Virus record (IMG/VR): IMGVR_UViG_3300028393_000019 | Coordinates: 124,001 to 188,000 of that record | DNA length: 64,000 nucleotides | Source of the DNA: a virus | Reading direction: 5' to 3' (one strand) | In this document: positions 3 to 50,656 of the stretch, piece by piece | How the letters are laid out: the number at the start of each line of letters is the position of its first letter | Position numbering within the stretch: position 1 is the first letter of the stretch | Translations under genes and position numbers: made by a program | Notes under the pieces: model-generated | What the model was told of the DNA's origin: nothing | The model's database searches: none | The model's input: only the letters and a program-made list of their open reading frames with translations

Positions 3-482
3 CCCGTAAGTTACATGCCATTAAGCACACTAATTTGGGAAGACGCTATCAAATACATGGTTCTAGACAAGGCCGATGTGTTGATGTGGCATGACGATTG
101 GATTGTACATTCAGCCACGTGGGAAACGCCTGTACCCAGTGTTATGATGCTTCGTGAATACATGAAGCCAAAAGTCACAGTTCGATTCAGTCGTGCCAAT
201 ATCTATCTACGTGACAATGCCACTTGTGCCTACTGTTTGAAACCTGTTGAACGCAAAGTGGCCACTCTGGATCATGTGCTACCGGTCAGCAAAGGCGGCA
301 AGACCACTTGGGAAAACTGTGTAACAGCCTGTGCACCATGTAACAGTCACAAGAGTGATACTACCAAAGGATGGAAGCCCAAATTCAAACCTTACAAGCC
401 AGACTTCTACGAACTAGTAAATAAGCGTAAGAAAGAAGCATTTAACTTAAGGTACGAAGAATGGCTACAATTCATCCGGTAA
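3..482 (+). CDS. HNH endonuclease (5' end outside window)
   Basis: The C-terminal half holds a zinc-type HNH nuclease: a CAYC pair, then LDHVLPVSKGG (catalytic His), then NCVTACAPCNSHK with the second Cys pair and the last His of the fold. Family members cut DNA and in phages act as homing or packaging-linked nucleases. An ATG lies at 15, but the frame is open to the window edge and the residues before it (PVSY) look like the usual family start, so the true start is probably upstream. It overlaps the next gene by 22 bases. The fold is sure; the role is not. Confidence 0.82.
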   Translation, partial: PVSYMPLSTLIWEDAIKYMVLDKADVLMWHDDWIVHSATWETPVPSVMMLREYMKPKVTVRFSRANIYLRDNATCAYCLKPVERKVATLDHVLPVSKGGKTTWENCVTACAPCNSHKSDTTKGWKPKFKPYKPDFYELVNKRKKEAFNLRYEEWLQFIR

Positions 483-895
483 AGAAGTTCTTATGGACAG
501 TCCTAGGCTTTTTAAGTCTAGGCATGGCGTATGTTGGGCTGGTCACGCCCGGCATACCCTACAGTTGCTTTGTGGTGGCCGCGGCCTACTGTTTTGCCAA
601 GGGCAACGAACGTATGCATCGTTGGCTATACAATCATAAGATCTTCGGCCCGTTCCTTACCAACTGGAATACCAAGCGTGTGTTCCCTACCAAGATGAAG
701 TTCTTCATGCTGGCCATGATGAGCTCTAGCTTGATCATCATGAGCTTTACTGTTCCCGTTAAGGGCGTGATCTATACAGGTATCTTTATGCTGTGTGTGG
801 CCATATGGGCTTGGCGTTGGCCCGGTAGTGTAGAAGAACACGATCGACGCATCGCAGAGGGCCGTAAGATAGGCTGGTTCAACAATAGCTTCTAA
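461..895 (+). CDS. DUF454 (YbaN-like) inner-membrane protein
   Basis: 144 residues with hydrophobic segments near residues 10-45 and 85-115. The stretch PGIPYSCFVVAAAYCFAKG followed by ERMHRWLYNHKIFGPFL matches the DUF454/YbaN signature (proline-rich turn, cysteine-Phe-Ala, then HRWL..H..FGP). The family is of unknown function and common in bacterial inner membranes; it is an unusual phage cargo. It starts inside the HNH gene (22-base overlap), so the two are co-translated. Confidence 0.75.
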   Translation: MATIHPVKKFLWTVLGFLSLGMAYVGLVTPGIPYSCFVVAAAYCFAKGNERMHRWLYNHKIFGPFLTNWNTKRVFPTKMKFFMLAMMSSSLIIMSFTVPVKGVIYTGIFMLCVAIWAWRWPGSVEEHDRRIAEGRKIGWFNNSF

Positions 896-4989: not shown

Positions 4990-5382
4990 ATGAAAAAACT
5001 GTTACTTGCCGTTGTATTTGTTAGTCTTACCGGATGCAGTGTGATCAGCAGTATCAAAGATCAAATACCCAGCGGCTGGGATGCCAATCAAAGTCAAGTA
5101 GTCACAGACATGCAACAAATGACACGTCATATTGATTGCACAGGAGACTTGAAGACACAACTGCATTCATTGTTTATGAAAGTAGAATGGTATGATATCT
5201 ATGCCACTACTAAGAATACTCGAGACATGGCTAAATTAGATCAGGTTATGCTGACAACAATTAGAGAGTTTCAAGAAAGAGTAGACAAAGGCGCAGTTAG
5301 TGCAATTTACTGTGACATGAAGAAAAAAGTACTAATACAGCAAGCTGACGTCATTGCCAAGACGGTACAGGGGAGATTTTAA
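4990..5382 (+). CDS. Small lipoprotein
   Basis: 130 residues. The N-terminus MKKLLLAVVFVSLTGC is a signal peptide with a lipobox (LTGC at 14-17), so the protein should be lipid-anchored in the periplasm or outer membrane. The rest is helical with two further Cys. It starts one base after the preceding stop and its own stop overlaps the next ATG. An outer-spanin-like or exclusion role is possible but nothing proves it. Confidence 0.6.
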   Translation: MKKLLLAVVFVSLTGCSVISSIKDQIPSGWDANQSQVVTDMQQMTRHIDCTGDLKTQLHSLFMKVEWYDIYATTKNTRDMAKLDQVMLTTIREFQERVDKGAVSAIYCDMKKKVLIQQADVIAKTVQGRF

Positions 5383-5618
5383 TGAGCGACCAACTAATAG
5401 CAGTAGCATCAAGTGGTGATCAATGGGCGGCTGAACGTGCTCAGTATGCGTTACAAATAAGTGATGCAGTTGCTAGTGGACAAATGAGCAAAGAAGAAGC
5501 TACTGAAGTTTTACAAGATATGATTGCTACTCAACAGCTACAAGAACAAGCCCAAGCTGATCAAGTCAAAGCCGCCCTGTTCTTTGGTATTACGAATCTA
5601 ATCAGTATGTACGTTTAA
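5382..5618 (+). CDS. Small helical protein of unknown function
   Basis: 78 residues, Ala/Gln-rich and predicted helical with an [10 protein letters not shown] segment, and a short hydrophobic end ([14 protein letters not shown]). It is coupled to the lipoprotein gene by a TAATG overlap and its last 17 bases overlap the end of the convergent ALA synthase gene. No family recognised. Confidence 0.5.
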
Positions 5619-6804
5619 AAACATCAACTAGGGCCGAGACTAGGTCTTCAATCATTCCATCATCGTGAAACGGAGTAGGTGCAAAACGTAACCGCTCCGT
5701 TCCCACATCTACTGTGGGATAATTGATGGCCTGTACATAGATACTGTAGTCAGCTAGCAATGCATCGCTCATGGCTTTGGCTCGTTTGGCATCACCCACT
5801 AGAACAGGCACGATATGACTGGTACTACAGGTCATAACAGGTATACCAGCCACAGTTAATCTATGCTTGAGTTTGCGAGCACGTTCCTGATGCCGTTCGC
5901 GGATTTCGGGGTGATCCTTCAGCCATTTGATAGCTGCCATTGCGCCACTACAGGTCACTGGACTCATTGATGTTGTAAAGATAAAACCAGCGGCCACACT
6001 ACGGATAGCATCTGCTACAATCCGATCGCAGGCAATATAACCGCCTTGAACTCCAAAGGCCTTTCCCAAGGTTCCGTTGACTATGTCAATCTTGTGTTCA
6101 AGAGCTAGTTCTTCTACTTTGCCACCTCCTGTTGCTCCGTATAGGCCCACAGCGTGTACTTCGTCAATGTAGGTAATAGCTTTGTATTTTTCTGCCAGTT
6201 TGCATATCTCTTTGATATGCCCCACATCACCATCCATTGAGTATACTGATTCAAATACCACACAAGGCGTATTGCCCTGTGCAAAACTGATCTTGAGTTT
6301 TTGTTCTAGATCTTCCAAGTCGTTGTGTTTGAACACAACTTTTTTAGCACGACTGTGTTGTATACCCACAATGATTGAGTTGTGATTGTTGGCATCGCTG
6401 ACATATTCAATATTGGGAATGATCTTGGCCAGGGCAATCAAGGTCCATTCGTTGGCCACATAGGCTGAACTGAACAGCACAGCTTTTTCTTTCTTGTGTA
6501 GTGTGGCAATTTCGTGTTCCAAAGCCACATGATAGTGACTGGTGCCACCAATGTTGCGTGTACCACCTGACCCACTGCCTGTATGATCCAATGCAGTGTG
6601 CATGGCTTCTAGCACCACTTTGTTCTGACCCATGCCCAAATAGTCGTTTGAACACCAATTGGTTATGTTCTTGATATTATAGGGTCCGTACCAAATAGCA
6701 CTGGGAAATTTGCCTGTTTCACGCACAATATCGTTAAACACACGATATTTGCCTGACTCTTTAAGTTCTGCTACCAGCTTCTCGAAGGGTTCTTTGTTTA
6801 TCAT
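5602..6804 (-). CDS. hemA: 5-aminolevulinate synthase (C4/Shemin pathway)
   Basis: Condenses glycine and succinyl-CoA to 5-aminolevulinate, the entry step of heme synthesis. 400 residues from the ATG at 6804, close to the length of alphaproteobacterial enzymes; the 21 codons before it in the frame look untranslated. Motifs of the alpha-oxoamine synthase family are intact: the Gly-rich [23 protein letters not shown] (PLP-ring Asp), and NGTLGKAFG with the Schiff-base Lys at residue 248. The C-terminal RLRFAPTP is also typical. It stands alone on the reverse strand, with a TTAAATA box 7 bases before its ATG, so it is probably expressed late. Separation from synthases making other oxoamines (KBL, BioF) rests on SNDYLGMG...GTRNI and overall similarity; I am confident. 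Confidence 0.93.
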
Positions 6805-6811
6805 AGTCCAG

Positions 6812-6817
6812 TATTTA
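6812..6817 (-). promoter_or_regulatory. TAAATA late-type box 7 bases before hemA ATG
   Basis: Reverse-strand GTTAAATACTGGACT-ATG. The N7 spacing recurs before 34352, 52435 (reverse) and 63354 (reverse). Confidence 0.45.
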
Positions 6818-6866
6818 ACGATAAATAACTGGACAAACAAATATTGTGGCGTACTAGCGCATGTCA

Positions 6867-6889: not shown

Positions 6890-8860
6890 ATGTCATTAAA
6901 TGCACAAACAGGCTATCACGAAAGTTCGGCGATGCCACAGCGAGTACGAGACGTACTTGGACGCTTAAAAGTATCAGTTCATCAAAACGTTTATGAAGCT
7001 GACTTTGAATACGGAACACAACCCCTACGTTGGGAAATTGTAACACAAGGCAGTGGTTCAGTTGCCTCTGTTCCCGGATCGGGTGGTGTGCGTATGCGTG
7101 TTACCAATGCGGCAGGCGATATTGCATTGCGTCAAAGTCGTCCATATCACAGATATCAACCAGGTAAGACCATGTTCATGGCCACAGGTTGTCAATTTGG
7201 TGTAGCCACTGCGTCGCAAGTTCAACGTGTGGGGTTCTTTGATGACTCAAACGGTGTATTTTTTGAACAAGGTGTTGCCACACAAACTAATCCATACGGC
7301 ATGTATGTGGTGGTGCGCAGTGACGCAGGTGGCACAATACAGGAAACACGTTGGGGATTAGACAGCTGGAACGGCGATCTTAATAATATTCGTCAATTAG
7401 ATTTCACACGTATACAGATGTTCTGGATTGAATATGCATGGTACGGAGCTGGTGCAACACGTTTTGGTTTCTGGATCAACGGTGAACCGGTGATTGCACA
7501 TCAAATTGGCTGGGCCAACTACAACAACACAGTCAACGCAACTGGACCACAAACTCAGCCTTGGGCACGTACAGGTAACTTGCCAGTGCGCTATGAAATC
7601 CGTAACATAAATGCAGTGGTACCTAATCCCAGCGACATGTATCACTATGGTGTGTCGGTTATCGTTGAAGGTGGACGAGACGAACAGCGTGGTTTTACAT
7701 ACTCATATGGTTTGCCAAATACTGTACAAACTCGTTCAGTAAGTCCATCCACAACACGTTTTCCATTGTTGACAATCCGTGGACGCCAGTTTGGTACGCA
7801 GGAATACGGCACAGTTTATGCGTCATCAACTGGTGCGACAATTACATCAATCGGGGCGGCAGTGAGTTGTAACCTTACAGCCAGCATTTCAGGAACTACA
7901 CTAACAGTCACGGCTACCAATTCGGGAACAATCCAAGCTGGACAACAGCTAACTGGTTTTGGTGTTGCATTTGGCACATATATAACTGGTGGTAGTGGGT
8001 CAACTTGGTCAGTAAGTATCAGTCAAACTACTGCGTCAACAACCATTACTGGATATAGTGTAACTATAACATTCCCAGCGGCCACATTTACCAGCGGACA
8101 GTTTAATGGACGCATGATATTCTTCCCAGGACAAGGCGGAACAGCATTAGATAAAAACGGTATTGTTGCTCGTGTGATTGCTACCAGCCCAACAACATTG
8201 ATCGTTGCTGATCCTGTAACAGGTGGCGCATTGACATCAACGCCTAGCGTTGGTACTCCTCCAGCCGCAAGCGCAATGAGTGGAGGTGTAACTGGTGGAT
8301 ATACATTTACAGTTGGTACTATATCTGGAGCCACAGTTGGTATGAGTGTAACTGGCACTGGTATTAGTCCGGGCAGTATTGTTAGTGCCATTAATGGTAG
8401 TGTAGTTACCATCAACCAACCATTGACAGCCAACAGTGCAGGCAATGCTACATTTGTAGCAGGCTACTGTATTGGACTAATTAATCGTGGACAATTACTA
8501 CCACGTCGTTTGATGGTGTCATCAGATACACGTTGCGTGGTTGAAGTTATTGCAGGTAGTATCACTAATAACAGCACACTAACTGGTGCAAACTTTGTAC
8601 CAATGGCCAGCTCAGGATCGACCAACAGTTTCGCTGAACGTGACTTTAGTGCTACTGCTGTAGCTGGCGGCGAAGTTGTGTTTGCGTTTACACTTGCTAG
8701 TGGTTCAGGATTGCAGGATATTGACTTCAGCTACTTCTTCCCCTTGTATAACAGTATTAGAGGAAATCAAATTGATCAATTAACAGTTGCAATTACTACA
8801 ATTAGTGGCACTACATCAGTTGTTGGTGCGCACTTGATCTGTCAAGAGGCTATGAGTTAA
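6890..8860 (+). CDS. Large virion structural protein
   Basis: 656 residues. The first 280 or so form a mixed domain with many aromatic residues (RPYHRYQPGKTMFMATG, NPYGMYVVVR, TRFGFWINGEP); the rest is Thr/Ser/Gly-rich beta repeat (ITGYSVTITFP, TGTGISPGS) like baseplate or fibre-associated proteins of T4-like aquatic phages. It has a strong AAGGAG ribosome site after a late-type box. No catalytic motif is seen. I cannot name the T4 counterpart. Confidence 0.68.
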   Translation: MSLNAQTGYHESSAMPQRVRDVLGRLKVSVHQNVYEADFEYGTQPLRWEIVTQGSGSVASVPGSGGVRMRVTNAAGDIALRQSRPYHRYQPGKTMFMATGCQFGVATASQVQRVGFFDDSNGVFFEQGVATQTNPYGMYVVVRSDAGGTIQETRWGLDSWNGDLNNIRQLDFTRIQMFWIEYAWYGAGATRFGFWINGEPVIAHQIGWANYNNTVNATGPQTQPWARTGNLPVRYEIRNINAVVPNPSDMYHYGVSVIVEGGRDEQRGFTYSYGLPNTVQTRSVSPSTTRFPLLTIRGRQFGTQEYGTVYASSTGATITSIGAAVSCNLTASISGTTLTVTATNSGTIQAGQQLTGFGVAFGTYITGGSGSTWSVSISQTTASTTITGYSVTITFPAATFTSGQFNGRMIFFPGQGGTALDKNGIVARVIATSPTTLIVADPVTGGALTSTPSVGTPPAASAMSGGVTGGYTFTVGTISGATVGMSVTGTGISPGSIVSAINGSVVTINQPLTANSAGNATFVAGYCIGLINRGQLLPRRLMVSSDTRCVVEVIAGSITNNSTLTGANFVPMASSGSTNSFAERDFSATAVAGGEVVFAFTLASGSGLQDIDFSYFFPLYNSIRGNQIDQLTVAITTISGTTSVVGAHLICQEAMS

Positions 8861-24396: not shown

Positions 24397-24783
24397 ATGG
24401 CCTATTCAGACAAAGTAATCGATCACTATGAAAATCCTCGCAATGTAGGATCGTTTGATAAAAATGATCCCACAGTGGGCACTGGCATGGTGGGAGCACC
24501 TGCCTGTGGCGATGTAATGAAACTGCAAATCAAAGTAGACACAGATGGCATCATTACCGATGCTAGATTTAAAACATATGGTTGTGGCAGTGCCATTGCC
24601 AGCAGTTCACTTATCACGGAATTGGTCAAGGGTATGAGTTTGGATCAGGCAAGTTCAATCAAGAACAGTGATATTGCACAAGAGCTGGCTCTTCCTCCGG
24701 TCAAGATACATTGTAGTATTCTAGCAGAAGATGCTATCAAGGCAGCCGTAAATGATTACCGTAACCGAAATAGCTCAAGCTAA
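24397..24783 (+). CDS. iscU: IscU-type iron-sulfur cluster scaffold
   Basis: 128 residues. All three cluster Cys are present: APACGD (about 36), TYGCGSAIASSS (about 63) and KIHCSILAEDAI (about 106, with the preceding His). It assembles 2Fe-2S clusters for transfer to apo-proteins. The IscU LPPVKxHCS chaperone-binding loop is intact (LPPVKIHCS), which fits the phage also carrying DnaK. It starts where the virion gene stops and overlaps iscA by 32 bases. Confidence 0.95.
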   Translation: MAYSDKVIDHYENPRNVGSFDKNDPTVGTGMVGAPACGDVMKLQIKVDTDGIITDARFKTYGCGSAIASSSLITELVKGMSLDQASSIKNSDIAQELALPPVKIHCSILAEDAIKAAVNDYRNRNSSS

Positions 24784-25078
24784 GATCAAACTGAATTTGG
24801 CTAAGCGTGGGCGTGGCGTCGGCATACGTATAGGTGTTAGAACCACAGGATGCAGTGGTTTGGCCTATACCATGGAATATGTGGACAAGTACGAAGCTGA
24901 AGTGGGTGTTACTAATTTTGGACATAAAGATTTTGTATTATTGGTAGATGCCAAAAGTCTAGTTTACTTAGATGGGCTGACCATGGATTGGGTTCGCAAT
25001 GGGCTCAATGAAGGATTTGATTTTGCCAATCCAAATGAAAAAGATCGTTGCGGATGCGGTGAGTCATTTAGAGTTTGA
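24752..25078 (+). CDS. iscA: IscA/ErpA-type iron-sulfur carrier
   Basis: 108 residues with the three A-type carrier Cys: RTTGCSGLAYTME (about 34) and CGCGESF near the end. It accepts clusters from IscU or stores iron for them. The 32-base overlap with iscU makes the pair translationally linked. No cysteine desulfurase is in the window, so sulfur would come from the host. Confidence 0.93.
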   Translation: MITVTEIAQAKIKLNLAKRGRGVGIRIGVRTTGCSGLAYTMEYVDKYEAEVGVTNFGHKDFVLLVDAKSLVYLDGLTMDWVRNGLNEGFDFANPNEKDRCGCGESFRV

Positions 25079-30357: not shown

Positions 30358-32271
30358 ATGAGCAAAATCATCGGTATCGATTTAGGTACAACAAATAGCT
30401 GTGTGGCAATCCTGGAAAACGGAGTTGCCAAAGTAATTGAAAACAGCGAAGGTGCGAGAACAACACCATCAATCATTGCATATACCAAGGACGAGATCCT
30501 AGTAGGTGCAACAGCAAAACGACAAGCAGTCACAAACCCAAAGAATACAATCTACGCCAGCAAGCGCCTTATTGGTCGCAAGTTTGACGAGAAAGAAGTA
30601 CAAAAAGACATCGACTTGATGCCTTATTCAATTATCAAAGCTGACAACGGTGACGCTTGGATTGAAGCCAACGGCGAGAAACTTGCTCCACAGCAGGTGT
30701 CAGCTGAAGTGCTACGTAAAATGAAAAAGACAGCAGAAGACTATCTGGGTAAAGAAGTTACACAGGCAGTTATCACTGTGCCTGCTTACTTCAACGACAG
30801 CCAACGTCAAGCAACCAAAGACGCAGGACGTATCGCTGGACTAGAAGTTCTACGTATCATCAATGAGCCAACAGCGGCCGCATTGGCATATGGTGTAGAC
30901 AAGCAAGACAAGAAAGATCGTAAGATCGCTGTGTATGACTTGGGTGGTGGTACATTTGACATCTCCATTATTGAAATTGCCAACATTGACGGCGACAAGC
31001 AAATTGAAGTGTTGAGTACAAACGGTGACACATTCCTAGGTGGTGAAGACTTTGACCAAGTTCTTATGGATCATTTGGTAGCAGAGTTTAAGAAAGACAA
31101 TGGTATTGACCTAAAGCAAGACGTGCTGGCTTTACAGCGTTTGAAAGAGTCTGCTGAAAAGGCCAAGATTGAATTGTCTAGTGCCGCAAGTACAACTGTT
31201 AACTTGCCATACATCACAGCAGATGCCAGTGGTCCAAAGCACATGAATGTGACTATCAGCCGTGCCAAGTTTGAGCAAATGGTTGAGAAACTGATCGAGC
31301 GTTCAATTGAGCCATGTAAGATTGCTATGAATGATGCCAAAGTTACAGCCGTAGATATCGACGAAGTTATCCTAGTTGGCGGCCAAACACGTATGCCCAA
31401 AGTGCAAGAAGCAGTTGAGAAACTGTTTGGCAAGGCACCACGCAAAGATGTCAACCCAGACGAAGCAGTGGCCGCAGGTGCCGCAGTACAAGGCGCTGTT
31501 CTAGCAGGCGACAAGACAGACGTGCTGTTGTTGGACGTGACTCCATTGACATTGGGTATTGAAACAATGGGCGGAGTGTTTACCAAGCTGATCAGCAAAA
31601 ATACAACTATACCAACCAAACACTCACAAACATTCTCAACAGCAGAAGACAATCAACCAGCTGTGACAATCAAAGTTGCACAGGGCGAGCGTGAGTTGTT
31701 TAAGTATAATAAGATGCTAGGTGAGTTCAATCTAGAGGGTATTGACCCTGCACCACGCGGTATGCCACAGATTGAAGTCACACTAGATTTAGATGCAAAC
31801 GGTATCTTGAATGTAAGTGCCAAAAATAAAACCACTGGCAAAGAAAACAAGATAACTATCAAGTCTGATTCCGGACTAACTGAAGCTGAAATCCAACGTA
31901 TGGTTCGTGAAGCTGAAGAAAATGCCGAATCAGACAAGAAGGCAGCAGAATTGATCGGAGCACGTAATCAAGCTGAAGGTACTACACACAGTATCAAGAA
32001 AGACTATGAAACGTATAAAGATCAATTGACTGAGGAAGAAAGAACCAAATTTGACGAAGCAGTAAAAGCAGTGGAAACTGCTTGTGCTGGTGAAGACAAA
32101 GAGGCGATTGACAAATCAGTACAGACTTTCTTTGAAGCCGCTGGTCCGGTTATGACTAAAAAACAAGCCGCTGAATCAACGACAGACGAAACCCCAGCTC
32201 AAAGCCAATCAGCTCAAGAGCAAACGGTTGATGCTAGCTTCACAGAAGTTGACAAAGAAGAAAAGAAGTAA
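30358..32271 (+). CDS. dnaK: Hsp70 chaperone DnaK, full length
   Basis: 637 residues, the usual bacterial length. The ATPase domain is intact: [56 protein letters not shown]. The linker [19 protein letters not shown] and the substrate domain follow, then a short lid and tail ending EEKK. No DnaJ or GrpE is in the window, so host co-chaperones are needed. A GATAAATATT box and AAAGGAG site lie upstream. Likely roles: folding of virion proteins, or help to IscU. Confidence 0.97.
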
Positions 32272-32277
32272 TATAAT
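32249..32277 (+). promoter_or_regulatory. Consensus promoter TTGACA-17-TATAAT inside dnaK end
   Basis: Both hexamers exact; reads into hsp20-clpS-heme oxygenase-bilin reductase. Confidence 0.85.
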
Positions 32278-32282
32278 GTAAT

Positions 32283-32309
32283 TGTAGGACGCCTTCGGGG
32301 TCCTACACA
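32283..32309 (+). other. Hairpin with TTCG loop before hsp20
   Basis: GTAGGAC(G)CC-TTCG-GGGTCCTAC, one bulged G, no T-run. In the 5' leader of the hsp20 mRNA; could be a stabiliser, thermosensor-like element or weak terminator. Confidence 0.55.
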
Positions 32310-32336
32310 TTCTTGCTTAATATAAGGAGATTAAAA

Positions 32337-32768
32337 ATGGCAACAATGCAATTAAAAGCGGTGAGTCCAGCAGACTTCGCCAATCTAAGTAGAGCCTTAA
32401 TTGGCTTTGATCAAATCTTTAACCAAAGATTGCAACAAGCAAACAGTAACTATCCTCCACACAACATTGTGAAGTATAGTGACAGTGAATATGCTATTGA
32501 AGTAGCAGTGGCAGGTTTCAGCAAAGAAGAAATCACAGTAGAAGTTGACCAGGATCAATTGATTGTTCGTGGTGTTCAGGGTGAAGTAGTAACCGAAGGT
32601 AAGGAATACTTACATCGCGGACTAGCTAGCCGAAACTTCGAACAGACATGGACACTGGCTGAATACATGGAAGTTAAAGATGCCGAAGTCAAAGACGGTA
32701 TGTTGGTCATTCAAATTGACCGCATCATGCCAGAAGCACTGAAGCCTCGACAAATTGTAATTAAATAA
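32337..32768 (+). CDS. Small heat-shock protein (Hsp20/IbpA type)
   Basis: 143 residues from ATG 32337 (AAGGAG). NYPPHNIVKYSDSEYAIEVAVAGFSKEEI is the IbpA/alpha-crystallin start and RGLASRNFEQTWTLAEYMEV the conserved middle; the C-terminal I-x-I/V (QIVIK) is present. It holds unfolded proteins for DnaK. T4-like phages often carry one. First gene of a four-gene operon. Confidence 0.93.
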   Translation: MATMQLKAVSPADFANLSRALIGFDQIFNQRLQQANSNYPPHNIVKYSDSEYAIEVAVAGFSKEEITVEVDQDQLIVRGVQGEVVTEGKEYLHRGLASRNFEQTWTLAEYMEVKDAEVKDGMLVIQIDRIMPEALKPRQIVIK

Positions 32769-32773
32769 TCAAC

Positions 32774-32791
32774 GGGGGAGGAAACTCCCCC
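32774..32791 (+). other. Perfect GC-rich hairpin (GAAA loop) between hsp20 and clpS
   Basis: GGGGGAG-GAAA-CTCCCCC, 7 bp, followed by TCTTAATAG rather than a T-run, so more likely an mRNA processing/stability element than a terminator. Confidence 0.6.
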
Positions 32792-32811
32792 TCTTAATAG
32801 AAAGAGCTAGA

Positions 32812-33114
32812 ATGTCAAATACAGATGTAATGATCGATGAGAAGATCAAGATACGTGCTACCGAACCCCGACGTTGGAAAGTCATCTTGTTAAATGACGA
32901 TTCTACTCCTATGGAGTTTGTTATTGTTCTACTAGTAGATATATTCAAGCATACAGTTGACAGTGCCAAAGATGTCATGCTCCAAGTACACGAAACTGGC
33001 TCCGGCGTAGCTGGAATCTATAGTTTTGAAATAGCAGAAGCCAAAGCAGTTGAAGCTACCAATCAAAGTAGACAAGACGGCCATCCTCTGCAGATAAAGC
33101 TGGAGGAAGAATGA
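32812..33114 (+). CDS. clpS: ClpS adaptor for the ClpAP protease
   Basis: 100 residues. WKVILLNDDSTPMEFVIVLL carries the N-degron pocket (N-D-D and Met), and the family spacing to VMLQVHETGSGVAGIY is right. It would steer N-end-rule substrates, or host proteins, to ClpA. Its stop overlaps the heme oxygenase ATG (ATGA). Confidence 0.9.
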   Translation: MSNTDVMIDEKIKIRATEPRRWKVILLNDDSTPMEFVIVLLVDIFKHTVDSAKDVMLQVHETGSGVAGIYSFEIAEAKAVEATNQSRQDGHPLQIKLEEE

Positions 33115-33668
33115 GCCTTAGAGAATTGACCAAAGACGCACATACTAATGCAGAGCGTCAAGAATTTGTTAAAATACTGTTCAGTGGCAATATCAATCCC
33201 AAACTGTATGCAGTATTTTTAAAAAATCAACATCCGCAGTATGAAATAGTAGAAGTGTGTGCCATGATGCATCCTGGACTGCTGTCCGGCATGCCCGATG
33301 TTCGTCGTGCCCCCCATATTCTAGCAGACTATGAGGAACTGTGGGATGATGAAACAGACGGTAAACCGCACATTTTAAAAACCACAGATAACTATTGTAA
33401 ACATATCTTGAGTATCAAGGATGATCCTAAAAAACTGATGGCACATATATATGTGCGCCATATGGGAGATCTAGCAGGCGGGCAGATGATAGCTAAGAAA
33501 GTTCCAGGTGCTGGTCGAATGTATCAATTTGAAGATCCTGAAAAACTCAAAACAATGATACGTGAAAAAATCAGTGACGATATGGCTGACGAAGCTAAAC
33601 TGTGTTTTGACTTTGCTACAGAGACATTTAAAGAAATGTTGGAATTAGTCGAATACAAAGATGAGTAA
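33111..33668 (+). CDS. ho1: Heme oxygenase
   Basis: 185 residues. The proximal His is His11 (LTKDAHTNAER); the distal helix is YVRHMGDLAGGQMI (Gly-rich kink, Asp120), followed by VPGAGRMYQF. It opens heme to biliverdin, CO and iron using ferredoxin electrons. It overlaps clpS by 4 bases and the bilin reductase by 8, so the biliverdin maker and user are made together. The same family is known from cyanophages and from uncultured phages of non-photosynthetic hosts. Confidence 0.95.
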   Translation: MSLRELTKDAHTNAERQEFVKILFSGNINPKLYAVFLKNQHPQYEIVEVCAMMHPGLLSGMPDVRRAPHILADYEELWDDETDGKPHILKTTDNYCKHILSIKDDPKKLMAHIYVRHMGDLAGGQMIAKKVPGAGRMYQFEDPEKLKTMIREKISDDMADEAKLCFDFATETFKEMLELVEYKDE

Positions 33669-34341
33669 AGTTTGGGATACACTAATAGATATCCAACAAC
33701 TTTTAGAGGATAATTTTGAGCGCACTGGCACTGAAGTTTTCGAGCCTGGAATGGATCGTTTTAACCAACCTGGCTGGGTTAATAGGGTATGGACTAGTGA
33801 TCTCTATCGCCGTGCTCACGTTGATGTGGTTGACGCGAGAGATACTAAAGGCCTTTGGATGATGCACTGTTGCATCTTTCCACATACACATAATCCTGCT
33901 CCAATTTACGGCTTTGATGTCATAGCTGGCAAGAACAAGATAACTGGCTGTTTTCATGATTACTCTAAAGCAGGCGATGCTGACCATCCAATGATGCAAT
34001 GGTTTGCAGGAGAAGTAGCCAAACTGGAATGGCGCAAAGAACGTGCTTTACCTGAATGGGCTACTAATATATTCAGTAAAAGTATGGTAGCCGCGGGCAA
34101 TGTACAAGACGAAACAGAGCTAGAACAGATTACCGACCTAGCTAGAACTACAGTAGCACACTATCTGAGCACAGTAGCAGAAACTAACAATACTGCTGAA
34201 AACACTACAGAAGCACAAAATTACTATGCACAGAATCAAAAGTGTAACCCGCATACACCCCGTGTAATGGTCAGTTTAGGTCTAAGCGAAGAAGATGTTG
34301 AACATTTCATACAGGAATGCCTGTTCCCTGAAATAGTATAA
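33661..34341 (+). CDS. pcyX: Ferredoxin-dependent bilin reductase (PebS/PcyX group)
   Basis: 226 residues. PAPIYGFDVIAGKNKITG and CFHDYSKA at 80-103 match the FDBR core; Asp100 takes the place of the conserved catalytic Asp (D-x-S). The C-terminus NPHTPRVMVSLGLSE...FIQECLFPEI is also typical. FDBRs reduce biliverdin to phytobilins such as phycoerythrobilin. The 8-base overlap with heme oxygenase supports the role. Subgroup (PcyX versus PebS or PebA) cannot be settled by eye; the non-cyanobacterial context favours PcyX. Confidence 0.85.
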   Translation: MSKVWDTLIDIQQLLEDNFERTGTEVFEPGMDRFNQPGWVNRVWTSDLYRRAHVDVVDARDTKGLWMMHCCIFPHTHNPAPIYGFDVIAGKNKITGCFHDYSKAGDADHPMMQWFAGEVAKLEWRKERALPEWATNIFSKSMVAAGNVQDETELEQITDLARTTVAHYLSTVAETNNTAENTTEAQNYYAQNQKCNPHTPRVMVSLGLSEEDVEHFIQECLFPEIV

Positions 34342-35911: not shown

Positions 35912-36000
35912 TATATTAGTAATCTGCGTATATAATACACTAGTATAATTCTCTGTTCTCACGGCTTAAATAATAATAAGACCTAGTGGGAGCGAAGACC

Positions 36001-36447
36001 ATGTCTAAATTGGCGATACTATTGCTATCCTTAATGCCTATTGTGTGTGTTTCTGCACCCATAGGCGACTATCAATTCAAAAGCCCTAGCTTTAACGGTG
36101 TAGGTTACAGTTCTCACGTGCTTACTATCGAAAATCAAGAATTCACTCGACAGGTACAAGTTAAGAAAGATATACAAGCCGCATTAGACAAAGCCAAAGC
36201 TGACGCGGCTAACACCAACATATCTAAGTTTCTAAACAACTTGGAAAGTCGTATCTATGCACAGATCAGTCAAAATTTAGCCACTGCCATGTTTGCCAAT
36301 GGCGGCACTAACAGCGGCACATTAAACTTTGAGGGTAATACTATATTCTGGTCAAAGGATGGCACGGCCGTAACAATGACAGTCACCGATGTCACTGGAA
36401 ATCAGACCACTGTAGTAATTCCTCTAAGTCAATTCCAATTCCAATAA
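36001..36447 (+). CDS. csgF: CsgF-like curli assembly factor
   Basis: 148 residues from ATG 36001. Signal peptide ends at VSA, and mature protein begins with a PIGDYQFKSPSFNG segment equivalent to the CsgF N-terminus that plugs into the CsgG pore. The rest (LESRIYAQISQNLATAMF, then VTDVTGNQTTVVIPL) fits the CsgF family. It is 1 base upstream of csgG. TTAAATAATAA lies upstream as a weak late-type box. Confidence 0.88.
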   Translation: MSKLAILLLSLMPIVCVSAPIGDYQFKSPSFNGVGYSSHVLTIENQEFTRQVQVKKDIQAALDKAKADAANTNISKFLNNLESRIYAQISQNLATAMFANGGTNSGTLNFEGNTIFWSKDGTAVTMTVTDVTGNQTTVVIPLSQFQFQ

Positions 36448-36448
36448 T

Positions 36449-37684
36449 ATGAAAAAGATTCTACTTGCACTTATTGTTGTGATGCTGAGTGGATGTGCAG
36501 TGATCCAAAGCACAGGGTTGACTGAAGTAGATCCCACATTGACAACTCAACGTGTTAATATCAAAAAAGAATTTGATAATATGCCTGCGCCAGCTAACGG
36601 CAAACCTGTCAGTGTTGCAGTTTATGGATTTACAGATAAAACAGGACAACGTAGACCACAACCAAATGTGGCCAGTTTGAGTACAGCAGTTACACAAGGC
36701 GCTGAAACATTCTTGATACAGGCCTTGCAAGGTGTTGGACAAGGTCGCTGGTTTGAAGTAGTGGAACGTGTGGGTATTGATAACCTCACTAAAGAACGTA
36801 CCATCATTAGACAGATGCGCGAAGCATACGAAGGTGCCAATGCCAAACCTTTGATGCCTATGCAATTTGCAGGTATAATCATGGAGGGCGGTATTGTAGG
36901 ATATGATGCTACATCTACCAGCGGCGGCGCTGGCATGCGTATATTTGGTATTGGCAAACAAACACAGTGGTCAACAGACACAGTGACCATTAGTTTACGT
37001 GCTGTCAGTGTCAATACAGGTAAGGTGTTAGCTGTGGTTACTGTACAAAAAACTATTTTATCAACAGCAGATAGTGCAACAGCATTGAAGTTCTTTGATC
37101 AGGGCACACAGGCATTTGAAGCAGAGATGGGTCTAACAATCAACGAGCCAGGAACCTATGCAGTCAAGGCCGCAACAGAGATGGCTGTAGTTGAGTTGAT
37201 CAAAGAAGGAGCAAGAAAAGGCATATGGGAATACAAGCCGGACACTCCGGTAGTTTTACCAGCACCTGTAGTTGAAAAGAAAGCTCCAGTAATCAGTAGC
37301 GAGATTAAGAAAGAAGTAGAGGAGAAGAAAGATGTCGTGGTTCAACCGCAGGCCGTGCCCGAAACAAAAACAGAAACCATACCCAGTGCCCCCGCAGAAG
37401 TAAAGGTTGAAGAAAAGAAAGCTGAAGTAAAGAAAGACAATGTCAAACCCAACGAAACAAAAATAGCACAAGATACTGCTAGATCGTTATTTGGCAAACG
37501 TAAATTGAAAGAAGATTCTTATTTGTATTCGGAGCAGGATTATACAAGCGTTAAGAAGTGGCAGTTCAAGAAAGGCACAGTGGTAGATGTAAGACAGCCT
37601 GGAAGTGAAGGCTGGTTTAGAGTAACAGACAGTGAATCAAGGGGCGGATGGATTCGTACAGAGCAGTTAGAGGAAGTAAAATAA
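36449..37684 (+). CDS. csgG: CsgG-like outer-membrane secretion pore with C-terminal SH3-like extension
   Basis: 411 residues; E. coli CsgG is 277. Lipobox LSGC at 13-16, then the CsgG core: VSVAVYGFTDKTGQ, RWFEVVERVGIDNLTKERTI, and the barrel region with SGGAGMRIFGIGKQTQW. After residue 270 there is a Lys/Glu/Val-rich linker of about 65 residues and a terminal SH3-like domain (about 350-411, WQFKKGTVVDVRQPG ... GWFRVTDSESRGGWI). The core makes a nonameric outer-membrane channel for curlin; the added domain may bind cell wall. The extension is unusual. Confidence 0.9.
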   Translation: MKKILLALIVVMLSGCAVIQSTGLTEVDPTLTTQRVNIKKEFDNMPAPANGKPVSVAVYGFTDKTGQRRPQPNVASLSTAVTQGAETFLIQALQGVGQGRWFEVVERVGIDNLTKERTIIRQMREAYEGANAKPLMPMQFAGIIMEGGIVGYDATSTSGGAGMRIFGIGKQTQWSTDTVTISLRAVSVNTGKVLAVVTVQKTILSTADSATALKFFDQGTQAFEAEMGLTINEPGTYAVKAATEMAVVELIKEGARKGIWEYKPDTPVVLPAPVVEKKAPVISSEIKKEVEEKKDVVVQPQAVPETKTETIPSAPAEVKVEEKKAEVKKDNVKPNETKIAQDTARSLFGKRKLKEDSYLYSEQDYTSVKKWQFKKGTVVDVRQPGSEGWFRVTDSESRGGWIRTEQLEEVK

Positions 37685-37906
37685 GGTGTTGTTTTTTTAA
37701 CAGTGTTGATTTTTTTACACCTTAGATGTAACGAAAAAATAACAGCAGTACTAAATTAAAGTCAACAATGTAGTAAATATTTTACAAAGGAAAAAGATGT
37801 AGCGAGAACAGTAGTACTAAAGGAACAGAGTTCCAAGGAGCGATGAGGGGATAAACTAAGCGTTTGTAAACAGTTACAAACAAGGTGTTCCAACCCAAAT
37901 CAAGTA
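37685..37906 (+). promoter_or_regulatory. Curlin leader: hairpins, late-type box and start-stop mini-ORFs
   Basis: No gene. AAGGTGT/ACACCTT pair around two T-runs (about 37683-37724); TAAATATT near 37774; AAAGG followed 7 bases later by ATG-TAG (37797-37802); AAGGAG next to ATG-AGG-GGA-TAA (37843-37854); perfect 8-bp hairpin GTTTGTAA/TTACAAAC at 37862-37881. Confidence 0.5.
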
Positions 37907-38830
37907 ATGATGATGAAAACATCAAGTTTAAAAGGCGCTGGTAAGTTGTCGCGAAAATTACTTACAATTCTTATGGTGTCTGCAATGCCACCATTGGGCT
38001 ATGCTGTTGACAACAGTATCTACATCGATCAGACGGGGAGTAATGCTGTGATTAATATTACTCAGGATGGTGCAGGTAATACAGTTAAAGCATTGACAAG
38101 CAACAGAACAGATGCGGCTATAATTAATGCCGATGGTGCTAATATTGCAATAACACAAGTTGGATCGGGCAACACAGTATCGTTAGGAGTATCGGCATCA
38201 GTAACAAGTGGTATATCTACCGATATTACATATTCTACAGGTACCAGTGGAGTAACCGGATCAACAGCCATATTCAATGTTAATGCAGGTGGTACTCAAT
38301 CAAATGCAAGCAAGACCAGTATTAATGTGTTACAAACTGGCAACAGCTCTAAATTTGAAGCCGATGTCACAGGTACGGGCAATAGTATAAGTGCTACCAC
38401 AGCAGGACCAAGTGACGATGTGTATTCTAAAATGCGTGGAAGCAGTAACACAGCCAATGTCAGTTTTAGCGGTACCGGCGGCTCAAACCAAGCAGTACTT
38501 GATCAATCAGGTAGCGGCAGTAATGCCATTGGAATCAATGCAAGTAGTACAGGTAACTATTTTGGTGTAACACAAGTTGGTAGTTTGAATACTGTTACAG
38601 TTGGCGGATACACATCCGGTGCGTTAGCAGGCGATGACAACACTGTGTTAATTCAACAAAATGGTACAAGTAACTTGGCTAATTTAGGAATTACAGGTGC
38701 TAGTAATAGTGTTAATATTAACCAAGGCGGCACCGGCCAAGATGCTAATGTAAAAATTAGCGGCGCAAGTAACACTGTTAACATTAGTCAAGGCGCTGGC
38801 AGTAATTTGTTAACTCCGCTATCTCGTTAA
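37907..38830 (+). CDS. Curlin-repeat protein (CsgA/CsgB-like)
   Basis: 307 residues. An N-terminal export region (about 1-33, ending near GYAV) is followed by repeated N-x(5)-Q-x-G-x-x-N-x(5) units: YIDQTGSNAVINITQDGAGN, IAITQVGSGNTVSL, INVLQTGNSS, VLDQSGSGSN, VTQVGSLNTV, IQQNGTSN, NINQGGTGQ, NISQGAGSN. These are curlin amyloid repeats. Three consecutive ATGs start the frame. The product should leave through CsgG and form fibres or coat the cell. Subunit versus nucleator cannot be decided. Confidence 0.85.
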   Translation: MMMKTSSLKGAGKLSRKLLTILMVSAMPPLGYAVDNSIYIDQTGSNAVINITQDGAGNTVKALTSNRTDAAIINADGANIAITQVGSGNTVSLGVSASVTSGISTDITYSTGTSGVTGSTAIFNVNAGGTQSNASKTSINVLQTGNSSKFEADVTGTGNSISATTAGPSDDVYSKMRGSSNTANVSFSGTGGSNQAVLDQSGSGSNAIGINASSTGNYFGVTQVGSLNTVTVGGYTSGALAGDDNTVLIQQNGTSNLANLGITGASNSVNINQGGTGQDANVKISGASNTVNISQGAGSNLLTPLSR

Positions 38831-38831
38831 C

Positions 38832-39956
38832 ATGGTTAAATTTTTAATAGGCGTTGTAGCTCTGTTAGCAATCTCACAGAGCTACGCGGCTATTGGCACC
38901 ATAACTGAACAAGTGAACGCGGCACCAACAGTAACACGCAAAACTCAAAATATAGTTGGAACCAAAGGCACTGGTATGGAGATGAACGATACTGTTCGCA
39001 CAACTCAGGGCAAGGTTGGGATAACATTCGAAGATCAGACCAAAGTACAAGTAAATGAAAACAGCAAACTAGTCATTGATGACTTTGTATACGATGCCAA
39101 GAAAGGCGCAGGTAAACTATCTCTTAATATGGCGTTGGGCACTGTGCGCTATGCATCAGGACAGATAGCCAAAAATAATCCGCAGAATGTGGGTATCACT
39201 ACACCAAGTGCCACTGTCAGTGTGCGTGGTACAGACTTTACTGCTACAGTAGATGAACTGGGTCGTAGTACATTTATTCTATTACCCAGCTGTCCCAGTG
39301 ATAGACTAACTCGTACTGTTAGCGATATTGAAACAAACTGCAAAGTTGGAGAGATTATTGTTGAAAGTGATGCTGGCCAAGTCGTATTAAATCAGGCGTT
39401 TCAAGCTACTAGAGTAGATAATAGAGGCACACCTCCTAGCCCGCCTGTCATATTAAAACTTAGCGAAGGTGCCATCAACAACATGATGATTGTTGCTCCT
39501 CCTAAAGAATTAAATCAAGATCAGCAAAAAACTAACACAAAATTTGAAATGAAAAATGCATTAGACATGAATTTTCTCAAAGAACAAGGGCTTGCTAATG
39601 TGTTGGATCAGCAACAGCAAGAAGTATACCAAGACAAACTAGCACGTAATTTCCTTGATCAGAACTTTCTTGCAAATATACTAGACATTATCGATAGTAT
39701 GATGAAGGCACAGATGAATTTATTAAATACTACAAGTAATAGATTACTTCCAGATTACAATGCTCTAACCGGGATTGTGGTAGACATACAAGAACCCAAG
39801 ATCACACTGAGCAGGGATGATGGCAGTAATGTGATGAGTGTAACTACTCCTACAAGTCAAAATACCACGATCTACATGACACAAGGTGCCATGGATACTA
39901 TTAAGAATAGAGTTAATAGCGGAGGCAGCACAGTTATAACGCTGATACAGAGATGA
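38832..39956 (+). CDS. Secreted FecR-domain protein
   Basis: 374 residues. Signal peptide (1-19, QSYA), then a FecR domain: TVRTTQGKVGITFEDQTKVQVNENSKLVIDDF and SATVSVRGTDFTATVD. The second half is helical and Gln/Asn-rich. FecR domains here lack the transmembrane sigma-regulator layout, so a periplasmic binding or scaffolding role is more likely. It starts 1 base after the curlin gene and overlaps the next ATG. Confidence 0.82.
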   Translation: MVKFLIGVVALLAISQSYAAIGTITEQVNAAPTVTRKTQNIVGTKGTGMEMNDTVRTTQGKVGITFEDQTKVQVNENSKLVIDDFVYDAKKGAGKLSLNMALGTVRYASGQIAKNNPQNVGITTPSATVSVRGTDFTATVDELGRSTFILLPSCPSDRLTRTVSDIETNCKVGEIIVESDAGQVVLNQAFQATRVDNRGTPPSPPVILKLSEGAINNMMIVAPPKELNQDQQKTNTKFEMKNALDMNFLKEQGLANVLDQQQQEVYQDKLARNFLDQNFLANILDIIDSMMKAQMNLLNTTSNRLLPDYNALTGIVVDIQEPKITLSRDDGSNVMSVTTPTSQNTTIYMTQGAMDTIKNRVNSGGSTVITLIQR

Positions 39957-40120
39957 TAAGACAATCAAATTCCAGTTACGTTGAATCGCAAAGACGCAGA
40001 CAAAAAGAAAAAGAAGCGATAGCTCGTGATAACTTAATCAAAGGTATGATAATAGCTCCTATATATTTGTTAGCTTGGTTTCCTATAGTGTGGATAATAT
40101 CTAAGGTATTTGGCAAATGA
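39953..40120 (+). CDS. Small single-helix membrane protein (55 aa)
   Basis: Basic N-terminus (SQRRRQKEKEAIAR) and one hydr­ophobic helix (MIIAPIYLLAWFPIVWII). ATG overlaps the FecR stop and its stop overlaps the next ATG, both ATGA, so it is part of the curli operon. Confidence 0.6.
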   Translation: MIRQSNSSYVESQRRRQKEKEAIARDNLIKGMIIAPIYLLAWFPIVWIISKVFGK

Positions 40121-40704
40121 AATTCTTAATAGTTGCGATAGTCATATCTATGGCCGGTTTGCAATGTTCAAACACTAAGGCTGCCGATAATACTATTATC
40201 ATCGATCAAATAGGTAGCGGCAACACGACTACAATAGTTCAAGATGGCAGTGGCAATACTGCCAGTGTAACAGCTGGATCTACTAGTGCTGTTGATTATA
40301 ATGTGTTTGCCATAACACAACAGGGTAATAATAAGACTGCAAGTATAGAACTAAAATCAGGAATTAATAACACATTTAATATACAACAAGATGGCACAGG
40401 TAATCATAATGCTAGTATACAAAACATGATCGGATCGGGTAATAATGTTACAGTAACACAGCAAGGCGCAGGCAATCATACTCTTACAGTTACCAATCCA
40501 AACAATGCTACTAACAATGGCAATACTGTAACAGCAACACAAACGGGCGGAACAGGCGCCGACAAAACATTCAATTTATATTTTAATGGTGCTACAGGTG
40601 CCGGTGTTACTATCAATCAAACTAATCCTACACAACCGGATCAAGCAGGTATGAACATACAATGCAATCCGTGTGGGTCAGGATGGAGCTATACTAAGTT
40701 TTAA
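40117..40704 (+). CDS. Second curlin-repeat protein
   Basis: 195 residues. Signal peptide to about 22 (TKAA), then curlin repeats IIIDQIGSGNTTTIVQDGSG, AITQQGNNKTASI, NIQQDGTGNHNAS, VTQQGAGNHTLTV, ATQTGGTG. A Cys pair (CNPC) near the end is odd for a curlin and may form a disulphide cap. Last gene of the cluster; a terminator follows at 40761. Confidence 0.83.
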   Translation: MKFLIVAIVISMAGLQCSNTKAADNTIIIDQIGSGNTTTIVQDGSGNTASVTAGSTSAVDYNVFAITQQGNNKTASIELKSGINNTFNIQQDGTGNHNASIQNMIGSGNNVTVTQQGAGNHTLTVTNPNNATNNGNTVTATQTGGTGADKTFNLYFNGATGAGVTINQTNPTQPDQAGMNIQCNPCGSGWSYTKF

Positions 40705-45657: not shown

Positions 45658-46351
45658 GTTTTGCAAGTCCTAATAAACTAAAAAGTCTCAGCCACATATA
45701 ACCAATATCAAATTCAAACCAGCGGCGACTCAGTTTAACGCTTGCTGGATTAAGATGATGGTTATTATGAAGTTCTTCACCGCCCACCACAATGCCCCAA
45801 GGAACAATGTTGCGACTACTATCACGAGTAGTTCCGTTCTTGTAACCATACCAATGTCCTATACCGTTGATAACTCCAGCGGCCCAAAATGGAATCCATA
45901 TCATTTGCACACCCCACACTACAAATCCCCACGGTCCAAAGAACAATAGATCTATGATCAGCATTAGAAGAATACCGAGGCGGCTATGGGGTGTATAAAT
46001 GTTACGCTCAATCCAATCGTCAGGAGTACCTACTCCAAACTTGTTGACCATGTCTGTGTCTTTACTTGCTAGATGATAAAGGCCTGCACCTTTGAAAAAT
46101 ACACGAGCGATGCCGTATACGTGCGGGCTATGCGGATCACCCGCATTATCACTAAATGCATGATGCTTACGATGTATAGCCACCCATTGTTTGGTTACCA
46201 TACCAGTTGTAAGCCATAGCCATGCTCGCATGAAATGGCTTAGTATCGGGTTGAATGCGATTCCCTTGTGCGCTTGGCCTCTGTGTAAAAACAAAGTAAC
46301 GGAAACGATAGTGATGTGTGTGACTACAAGTGTGTATATAATTATGTTCAT
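45638..46351 (-). CDS. Acyl-CoA/acyl-lipid fatty acid desaturase
   Basis: 237 residues. The three His boxes are intact: LHRGQAH, HRKHHAFSD and ELHNNHH, set among four hydrophobic spans, as in delta-9-type membrane desaturases. It introduces a double bond with electrons from ferredoxin or cytochrome b5-like donors. Its 3' end overlaps the cyclase by 20 bases (convergent). A second desaturase is at 61976-62743. Confidence 0.92.
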   Translation of the reverse strand: MNIIIYTLVVTHITIVSVTLFLHRGQAHKGIAFNPILSHFMRAWLWLTTGMVTKQWVAIHRKHHAFSDNAGDPHSPHVYGIARVFFKGAGLYHLASKDTDMVNKFGVGTPDDWIERNIYTPHSRLGILLMLIIDLLFFGPWGFVVWGVQMIWIPFWAAGVINGIGHWYGYKNGTTRDSSRNIVPWGIVVGGEELHNNHHLNPASVKLSRRWFEFDIGYMWLRLFSLLGLAKLISREQ

Positions 46352-48420: not shown

Positions 48421-48488
48421 CACAAGGTCGCGTAAAATCAGTCAAAGCTAGAGCCAAACGTGCAACTCGTAAAGCACGTAACAAGTAA
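48417..48488 (+). CDS. Arg/Lys-rich micro-protein (23 aa)
   Basis: MTQGRVKSVKARAKRATRKA plus RNK; protamine-like. Coupled to the preceding micro-gene and directly upstream of tmRNA. Translation is supported only by the ATGA overlap. Confidence 0.4.
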   Translation: MTQGRVKSVKARAKRATRKARNK

Positions 48489-48496
48489 TAGCAAAA

Positions 48497-48840
48497 GAAT
48501 TGTTGTACAAGCCTTAAAGTAAGGCATTCTGGACGCGGGTTCGACTCCCGCCAGGTCCACCATAAGCATATTAGGTCGTTGAGTTAAAAAGTCGCATGTG
48601 ATGCGCTCAGACTAAAATAGTATGCTTTTGATGGGCCTGCCATGGTTTCGACAGGGTGAGATAGGATAAAGGTCAACACGTGGGGTCACGTAAAATACAA
48701 ATAAAGTAAATGCAAAAGCAAATACATTCGAGTATTTCCAAGTTCCTGTAACATTAGCTACTGCTAATGATGCAGAATTTGCAATCGCAGCCTAAGAAAC
48801 TGCACTCGCGAGGTAGGACTTACCTTGTCATCAAAACAAC
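48497..48840 (+). ncRNA. ssrA: tmRNA, circularly permuted two-piece type
   Basis: The acceptor piece comes first: T-arm GCGGGTTCGACTCCCGC and a 3' end CAGGTCC-A-CCA ending at 48562. After a spacer of about 70 bases the coding piece starts at 48633 with GGGCCTG, which pairs with CAGGTCC, followed by the conserved CCATGGTTTCGACAGGG. The tag reading frame at 48757-48795 gives ATANDAEFAIAA and a TAA stop; the -AIAA end is a ClpXP-type degron. Piece order is that of alphaproteobacterial tmRNA. It frees stalled ribosomes and tags the products. Outer ends are approximate. Confidence 0.9.
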
Positions 48841-48846
48841 CAAAAA

Positions 48847-48868
48847 GGCACTTTCGAGTGCCTTTTTT
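48847..48868 (+). terminator. Rho-independent terminator after tmRNA
   Basis: GGCACT-TTCG-AGTGCC then six T. Confidence 0.88.
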
Positions 48869-48869
48869 A

Positions 48870-48898
48870 TTGACCAGTAAACAATTTGCATATATAAT
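48870..48898 (+). promoter_or_regulatory. Sigma70-type promoter TTGACC-17-TATAAT
   Basis: Directly after the tmRNA terminator, drives the outer-membrane protein. Confidence 0.75.
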
Positions 48899-48944
48899 AG
48901 GGTACTGTGTAAAAACAGTCATTTTAATTAAAAGGAAGTAAAAC

Positions 48945-49397
48945 ATGAAGAAAATTGCAATCGCAACCCTATTGGCCCTAGCGGCCGCAACAGCCAGTGC
49001 TGTAGAAGTTGGCGTCAACGGATCGTACGATTACGGTTCACCAACCCAACGTCCAGGTGCAGGTATCACAATCGGTCAGAAATATGACAAGTTTGGTGTC
49101 ACTGCTGGATTTGATCGTTACTCAAAAGGTACAGATCAAAACAAGTGGACACTGGTTGGTTCATATGATGTGTATTCAGTCGGTGCCGCAACGTTCGCAG
49201 TCAAAGCTGGTGCCGCATATTTGGACAACTATGGTAATGTTGCTGATGGTTATGCTGGTCTAGTTGGCACAGGTGTCAGCTATGCAGTTGCTAAGAATGT
49301 TGCATTGACAGCAGACTATCGCTATCAGTTCGGCCAGTCACGTGTTAACCAATTTGATGGCAACACAATTTCTACAGGCATCAAGGTCTCATTCTAA
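48945..49397 (+). CDS. Small outer-membrane beta-barrel protein
   Basis: 150 residues. Signal peptide MKKIAIATLLALAAATASA, then alternating strands with aromatic belts (GVTAGFDRYSK, KWTLVGSYDVYS, ALTADYRYQFGQS) and a terminal Phe (IKVSF) as BAM signal. The size fits an 8-strand barrel. It has its own promoter and terminator, so it is probably expressed early and independently. A phage-made surface protein could block superinfection; not shown by sequence. Confidence 0.8.
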   Translation: MKKIAIATLLALAAATASAVEVGVNGSYDYGSPTQRPGAGITIGQKYDKFGVTAGFDRYSKGTDQNKWTLVGSYDVYSVGAATFAVKAGAAYLDNYGNVADGYAGLVGTGVSYAVAKNVALTADYRYQFGQSRVNQFDGNTISTGIKVSF

Positions 49398-49420
49398 TTT
49401 TTAATTAGAAAAACATCAAG

Positions 49421-49440
49421 GGACCTTAGGGTCCTTTTTT
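49421..49440 (+). terminator. Rho-independent terminator
   Basis: GGACC-TTAG-GGTCC then six T. Confidence 0.85.
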
Positions 49441-49487
49441 GTTAATGGAAAATATTGTGGCGATTTTGCCACATTATCACTAGGTTC

Positions 49488-49825: not shown

Positions 49826-49858
49826 GTAACAACTTAGAAACATTTCAAAACTTCAAGG

Positions 49859-50581: not shown

Positions 50582-50656
50582 GCACGGTTCGTCTATCGGT
50601 TAGGACACTGGCCTTTCACGTCAGTAAGACGGGTTCGATTCCCGTACCGTGTACCA
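50582..50656 (+). tRNA. tRNA-Glu (TTC)
   Basis: Acceptor GCACGGT/ACCGTGT, anticodon TTC, CCA encoded. Confidence 0.92.

Follow-up and report, generated by a model that had tools for sequence, protein, structure and literature searches.

By its sequence, the minus-strand gene at positions 5602..6804 of the window (the whole 64 kb stretch analysed here, part of a viral record of 265,680 bases) is a genuine and conserved 5-aminolevulinate (ALA) synthase, termed viral AlaS, carried by a large aquatic phage; the enzyme opens one of the routes to heme. We consider it rather probable that this gene encodes a working enzyme, is expressed from its own late-type promoter and would provide a C4 route in a C5 host, the heme being shared between heme proteins and a HemO/PcyX branch. 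The phage AlaS described here is known in kind, because viral AlaS was published in 2024. According to passages of that report (Wegner et al. 2024, PMC11480375), aquatic phages carry viral alaS either by itself or together with hemO and pcyA/X, and the CB_2 enzyme rescues an E. coli strain auxotrophic for ALA. The initial annotation had called Shemin-pathway genes in aquatic phages a recent theme. Viral alaS was also tracked in metagenomes in a 2026 estuary study, as far as the portion consulted goes (PMC13390420). What is interesting is the context added here, namely a likely C5 host, a DUF454 partner, a clpS-hemO-pcyX run and an upstream element belonging to alaS itself.

Identity and relatives of the viral AlaS

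The open reading frame encodes 400 amino acids, with the ATG at 6804 and the stop codon ending at 5602. This start was favoured over an upstream ATG at 6867, since all 51 distinct relatives carry an ATG at the same residue. The NCBIfam ALA synthase model TIGR01821 scored 560.9 bits (cut-off 338.55). Models of BioF, KBL and serine palmitoyltransferase (Spt) reached 203-312 bits, all below their cut-offs of 426-670, and the best-matching solved structures were the ALA synthases 7x98 and 2bwn. In ALA synthase, H142, D214 and H217 take part in PLP binding, and R21, T83, N85 and I86 form the succinyl-CoA pocket. In the alignment, 79 of 79 phage rows keep R21, T83, R84, N85, I86, H142, S189, D214, H217, T245, K248, T365 and R374 (R. 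capsulatus numbering). All catalytic and substrate residues that were checked are thus common to the window AlaS, the R. capsulatus enzyme (2bwn) and alphaproteobacterial HemA. The Schiff-base Lys248, encoded at 6061-6063, has the same number as in R. capsulatus, and K248 is named in PMC11480375. Reading frame, family score and lysine together bear out the earlier description of an intact ALA synthase. The gene is under strong purifying selection: against same-lineage relatives the median dN/dS was 0.065 (range 0.034-0.120). This covers 39 of 54 pairs; in the 15 pairs left out, dS was saturated or undefined.

The window AlaS differs from alphaproteobacterial HemA in its separate clade, in lacking a Cys near the C-terminus and in carrying Arg341 as the equivalent of His342. 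No Cys is present within the last 22 residues in 80 of 81 phage loci, Cys400 itself lying outside the aligned template. The viral enzyme may be poorly inhibited by heme, because it has Arg in place of His342 and no C-terminal Cys. The lost histidine nevertheless argues only weakly for feedback resistance, as His342 is present in no more than 6 of 28 bacterial AlaS. Loss of the heme-regulatory His is shared with the viral AlaS of Wegner et al., as is the catalytic Lys; passages of that paper describe His342 and/or Cys400 as absent in many, not all, viral AlaS (PMC11480375).

In a maximum-likelihood tree of 135 rows, the 79 phage rows, with the window included, formed one side of a branch (SH-aLRT 93), and the same rows plus five genome-contig rows (L084-087, L089) were held together with SH-aLRT 100. 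The tree comes from a quick search with SH-aLRT support only and carries a long-branch warning; the CB_2 protein was not identified among its rows. Removed beforehand were L001 and L002 (the window again), L053 and L109 (partial) and the outgroup L141-L163. The phage clade lies apart from alphaproteobacterial AlaS/HemA, which is its nearest cellular family, and far from 24 KBL/BioF-like rows. The phylogeny against alphaproteobacterial HemA that the initial annotation had proposed as a check thus placed the window AlaS with phage AlaS, outside HemA.

Relatives are encoded on 487 pattern-matched viral-contig stretches, some of which are more distant family members; in all counts given here, relatives are not independent samples. 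A counterpart in isolate phages was sought and rejected: 19 annotated records matched at only 26-35% identity, the annotated matches being KBL or BioF. By their record names, several of the 19 look like host DNA. Among the genome-contig rows, L085, L086, L087 and L089 have a DUF454 gene overlapping alaS or at most 12 nt after it, as in phages. Given this phage-like arrangement, the four contigs probably belong to phages and were binned with bacterial genomes; a PHROG scan of ten other proteins from these contigs was partly informative. The copy at L084:6001-7188, in a Neisseriaceae genome, lies among genes for PdxA, SurA, LptD, a patatin, an outer-membrane efflux protein and an ABC transporter. 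With such chromosomal neighbours it appears to be a phage-type AlaS residing in a cellular genome, and transfer from phage to bacterium or the reverse is possible. Another phage alaS (G046:C1:13367-14560) contains one in-frame TAA, perhaps marking a decaying copy or a sequencing error.

Genomic site and upstream element

The alaS gene overlaps a small plus-strand ORF (5382..5618) tail to tail by 17 nt. This overlap is kept in 51 of the 58 loci that match the small ORF (81 viral loci examined, redundancy not removed). Upstream, the divergent neighbour on the plus strand encodes a virion structural protein (6890..8860; PHROG phrog_1645). The gene had been described as standing alone among virion genes, which is roughly right: a virion structural gene flanks it on one side, but the other flank holds only small opposite-strand ORFs without a family match. 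Since the overlap is widely kept and the virion gene diverges from alaS, both the site and the antisense orientation seem to be old in this phage group.

A late-type box, TTAAATAC, is located on the minus strand at 6811..6818, 6 nt before the alaS ATG. The initial annotation had drawn attention to such a box, and this claim stood in part. With 6 occurrences against 4.1 expected, the exact TTAAATAC is not enriched in the window, and nor is the exact TATAAATA. The degenerate form T[AT]AAATA, however, precedes alaS in 32 of 51 distinct relatives, compared with 1.3% of background 60-nt stretches; it precedes only 3 of the 53 genes in the window. Directly upstream of alaS lies an AT-rich inverted repeat, TATTTA-N4-TAAATA (6812..6827), which is a candidate operator or bidirectional promoter. 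The pattern ATTTA-N(0-8)-TAAATA was found upstream of alaS in 41 of 51 distinct relatives and in 69 of 21,542 background 60-nt stretches (0.32%), and across those 51 loci it has only 45 copies in total (one strand read). The 60 nt upstream of alaS are otherwise diverged among the relatives (median ungapped identity 0.37). We infer that the repeat may represent two opposed late-type boxes, or else an operator. No Shine-Dalgarno sequence is visible before alaS, so a leaderless mRNA is possible, and a sigma-70 scan around the gene returned fewer sites than shuffled sequences.

Two further gene-start copies of the repeat were found in 144 kb of the window's record. One (window 63362-63375) precedes a minus-strand ORF by 8 nt, with a fatty-acid desaturase gene following that ORF. 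The other (L430:5982-5997) separates two divergent ORFs, whose starts are 6 and 9 nt away. Other matches to the looser pattern are mostly intragenic. The desaturase behind the repeat-preceded ORF, at 61976-62743 (-), is one of two in the window, the second being encoded at 45638-46351 (-). A CHASE2 sensor fused to an adenylate/guanylate cyclase domain is encoded at 43615-45657.

The bilin genes and DUF454

The heme oxygenase and bilin reductase that the initial annotation had reported alongside AlaS are indeed encoded in the same record, 26 kb from alaS. HemO (33111..33668, +) overlaps the gene of a ferredoxin-dependent bilin reductase of the PcyX type (33661..34341, +), and is itself overlapped by 4 nt by the gene of a ClpS protease adaptor (32812..33114, +). 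The ClpS motifs NDD.TPMEFV and VH are kept, residues of which have known roles in the ClpS pocket. HemO has the N-terminal His and the GDL.GGQ motif, both with established roles in this enzyme. All of the 14 regions compared, which come from 13 related records, show clpS, hemO and the reductase gene contiguous and in this order. The reductases of these 14 regions all keep Asp55, His69 and Asp86, of which Asp55 and Asp86 are also present in the window; a role of Asp86 in PcyX is known. The window reductase scored 230 bits against the solved PcyX (5owg) and 57 against PcyA. CB_2, by comparison, has a PcyA that lacks Asp55, and the relevant passage of PMC11480375 attributes its PcyA activity to this missing residue. 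Phycoerythrobilin (PEB) is therefore the predicted product of the window reductase, as Asp55 is kept.

A "broken cassette", with hemO and the bilin reductase gene located away from alaS, is shared with viral alaS phages in the part of the work of Wegner et al. concerned. Pelagibacter phage Mosig (MT647606, L432) likewise has an overlapping hemO and bilin reductase, the latter 50% identical to that of the window. In contrast to the window, Mosig has an annotated ferrochelatase near hemO-pcyX and no annotated clpS in the stretch compared, and it is not among the phage-collection records matched by the window AlaS. Several 2OG-Fe(II) oxygenases adjoin its hemO-pcyX pair. Ahead of hemO in the window, DnaK, Hsp20 and ClpS stand in a row (30358-33114). 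Overlapping genes for IscU-like (NifU_N) and IscA-like Fe-S assembly proteins are present at 24397-25078. Curli genes occupy 35986-40704 (CsgF, CsgG and two curlin-repeat proteins, with a FecR-domain protein between); a literature search on curli with jumbo phage or heme oxygenase gave nothing relevant by title.

Both hemO and the reductase, always together, were found in 13 of 38 AlaS contigs, which had been chosen from 80 alaS loci and are mostly longer contigs. Neither gene was found in the other 25, some of 147-185 kb; most of these are fragments, and all may be. In nine non-redundant loci the reductase gene lies directly upstream of alaS. No ClpS match was obtained in the examined flanks of other phage AlaS loci, these nine three-gene cassettes included.

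The genomic partner of phage AlaS is a gene for a small membrane protein of the DUF454 family (PF04304, YbaN family; 461..895, + in the window). Of the 35 non-redundant loci of the window lineage that had about 8 kb of downstream sequence, 30 carried DUF454, always on the opposite strand. Two other lineages have it immediately behind alaS and in the same orientation in 54 of 102 loci, and at most 3 kb away in 67 of 78; these counts describe those lineages and not all phage AlaS, because both AlaS seeds adjoin DUF454. Two of the nine loci with the reductase joined to alaS also carry it. In the reverse search, alaS was found in 21 of 26 DUF454 records of at least 25 kb, a subset of 80 DUF454 loci. 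The DUF454 gene thus travels with phage alaS in several lineages. Among 50,697 phage records DUF454 gave six matches, all at most 35% identical. A test on bacterial DUF454 yielded 0 of 27 with a profile made from phage sequences, which may miss distant members, and a structural model (pLDDT 79, pTM 0.50) had no PDB match better than E 3.3. Among the papers that a literature search on DUF454, COG2832 or PF04304 listed, none concerned phages by title. Part of PMC12282271 places bacterial DUF454 together with heme oxygenase in the neighbourhood of T11SS genes, and according to part of PMC7970244 iron limitation raises DUF454 in Avibacterium. DUF454, tmRNA and ClpS do not occur in the main text of PMC11480375; "promoter" occurs four times, with only the tac promoter meant in the relevant passages.

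Host and role of the viral AlaS

Two genes hint at the host. The phage DnaK (30358..32271, +) is nearer to the order of the Neisseriaceae genome G039, which we take to be the GTDB Burkholderiales, than to Alphaproteobacteria: genomes of the former gave 869-945 bits in 38 of 41 cases, those of Alphaproteobacteria (the class of a Methylocystaceae genome) 708-823 bits in 33 of 41. The permuted tmRNA (48450..48869, +) has beta_tmRNA as its best clan match (118.5 bits, gathering score 84), a model above cut-off in only 2 of 100 genomes of G039's order. Together with 28 tRNA genes, one of them tRNA-Glu(TTC) (50582..50656, +), it spans 48450-57130. Of 200 genomes belonging to this order, only 6, including G039 itself, had a TIGR01821 match above the cut-off. 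DnaK and tmRNA thus hint at a betaproteobacterial host that would make ALA from glutamyl-tRNA, a difference from the viral AlaS phages of Wegner et al. A C5 host appears the likelier case, given DnaK, beta_tmRNA and the rarity of AlaS in G039's order, although this argument runs through genes that may have been acquired. A search for pmoC in the genome gave no match, and control genomes were equally silent.

In the reading we prefer, alaS would be transcribed from its own late-type, possibly bidirectional promoter at the strand switch. The product would be a PLP-dependent homodimer that, like its family, joins glycine and succinyl-CoA to ALA on Lys248, and it may respond only poorly to feedback inhibition by heme. 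Adding this one-enzyme C4 route to a C5 host would let tetrapyrrole synthesis continue during infection without using glutamyl-tRNA, the remaining steps of the heme pathway being supplied by the host. Some of the heme would serve respiratory and other heme proteins, and some would pass via phage HemO to biliverdin and on, by the PcyX-type reductase, to phycoerythrobilin.

It is possible, though doubtful, that AlaS chiefly feeds the phage bilin branch through HemO and then PcyX, with PEB or iron release as the product that counts. Both genes are in the same record, they accompany AlaS in 13 of 38 contigs, and the reductase directly precedes alaS in nine loci. However, 25 contigs show neither gene, some of them 147-185 kb long, even if fragmentation may contribute; elsewhere DUF454 and not hemO is the usual neighbour of alaS, with the caveat that the hemO profile was made from few sequences and may miss divergent copies; and the scan of window proteins recognised neither a bilin-binding protein nor a ferredoxin. 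The earlier proposal that the phage pushes heme synthesis for bilin or heme-protein needs accordingly keeps its plausibility, but bilin supply accounts for only a part. The enzyme is rather unlikely to be redundant in an alphaproteobacterial Shemin-route host, where the phage copy would merely sustain ALA synthesis free of host control. The alphaproteobacterial affinity of the nearest cellular family fits such a host, as does the assignment of the related CB_2 phage to Methylocystis in parts of PMC7674155 and PMC11480375, while DnaK and tmRNA point away from Alphaproteobacteria.

A misnamed KBL, BioF, serine palmitoyltransferase or cyclising ALA synthase is hardly credible. The fold is common to these families at ~30-34% identity, but the BioF, KBL and Spt models stayed below their cut-offs, the KBL/BioF-like rows form a separate branch, and T83, N85 and I86 are kept. 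KBL, BioF or Spt identity was rejected on these scores and the tree, and the grouping with those families that the initial annotation had named as counter-evidence did not occur. We regard as improbable a more far-reaching scheme in which the phage switches its host from C5 to C4. Viral AlaS would replace the host route, phage ClpS would steer host glutamyl-tRNA reductase (GluTR) to Clp proteolysis, freeing glutamyl-tRNA for late protein synthesis, and DUF454 would be a membrane partner handling a tetrapyrrole or its iron. We know of no obvious GluTR degron, and the C5 host underlying this scheme is itself something we infer. The scheme rests on the intact ClpS motifs, the clpS-hemO-pcyX order in 14 of 14 regions and the phage tRNA-Glu, as well as on GluTR being a Clp/Lon substrate in bacteria and binding ClpS in plants, as stated in parts of PMC6597238 and PMC7966870. 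Against it, the dark decay of plant GluTR appears unchanged without ClpS1 in the passage concerned (PMC7966870).

Returning to the preferred reading, of a C4 route added to a C5 host, sparing of glutamyl-tRNA in non-alphaproteobacterial hosts has already been proposed in a passage of PMC11480375. Should the host indeed use the C5 route, the phage would supply a pathway missing from that host, which makes this idea directly testable. Phage AlaS is confirmed as widespread, and it is now linked to a fixed genomic position, to a control element upstream of the gene and to DUF454, a domain of unknown function; this pairing is a concrete lead on DUF454 in phages.
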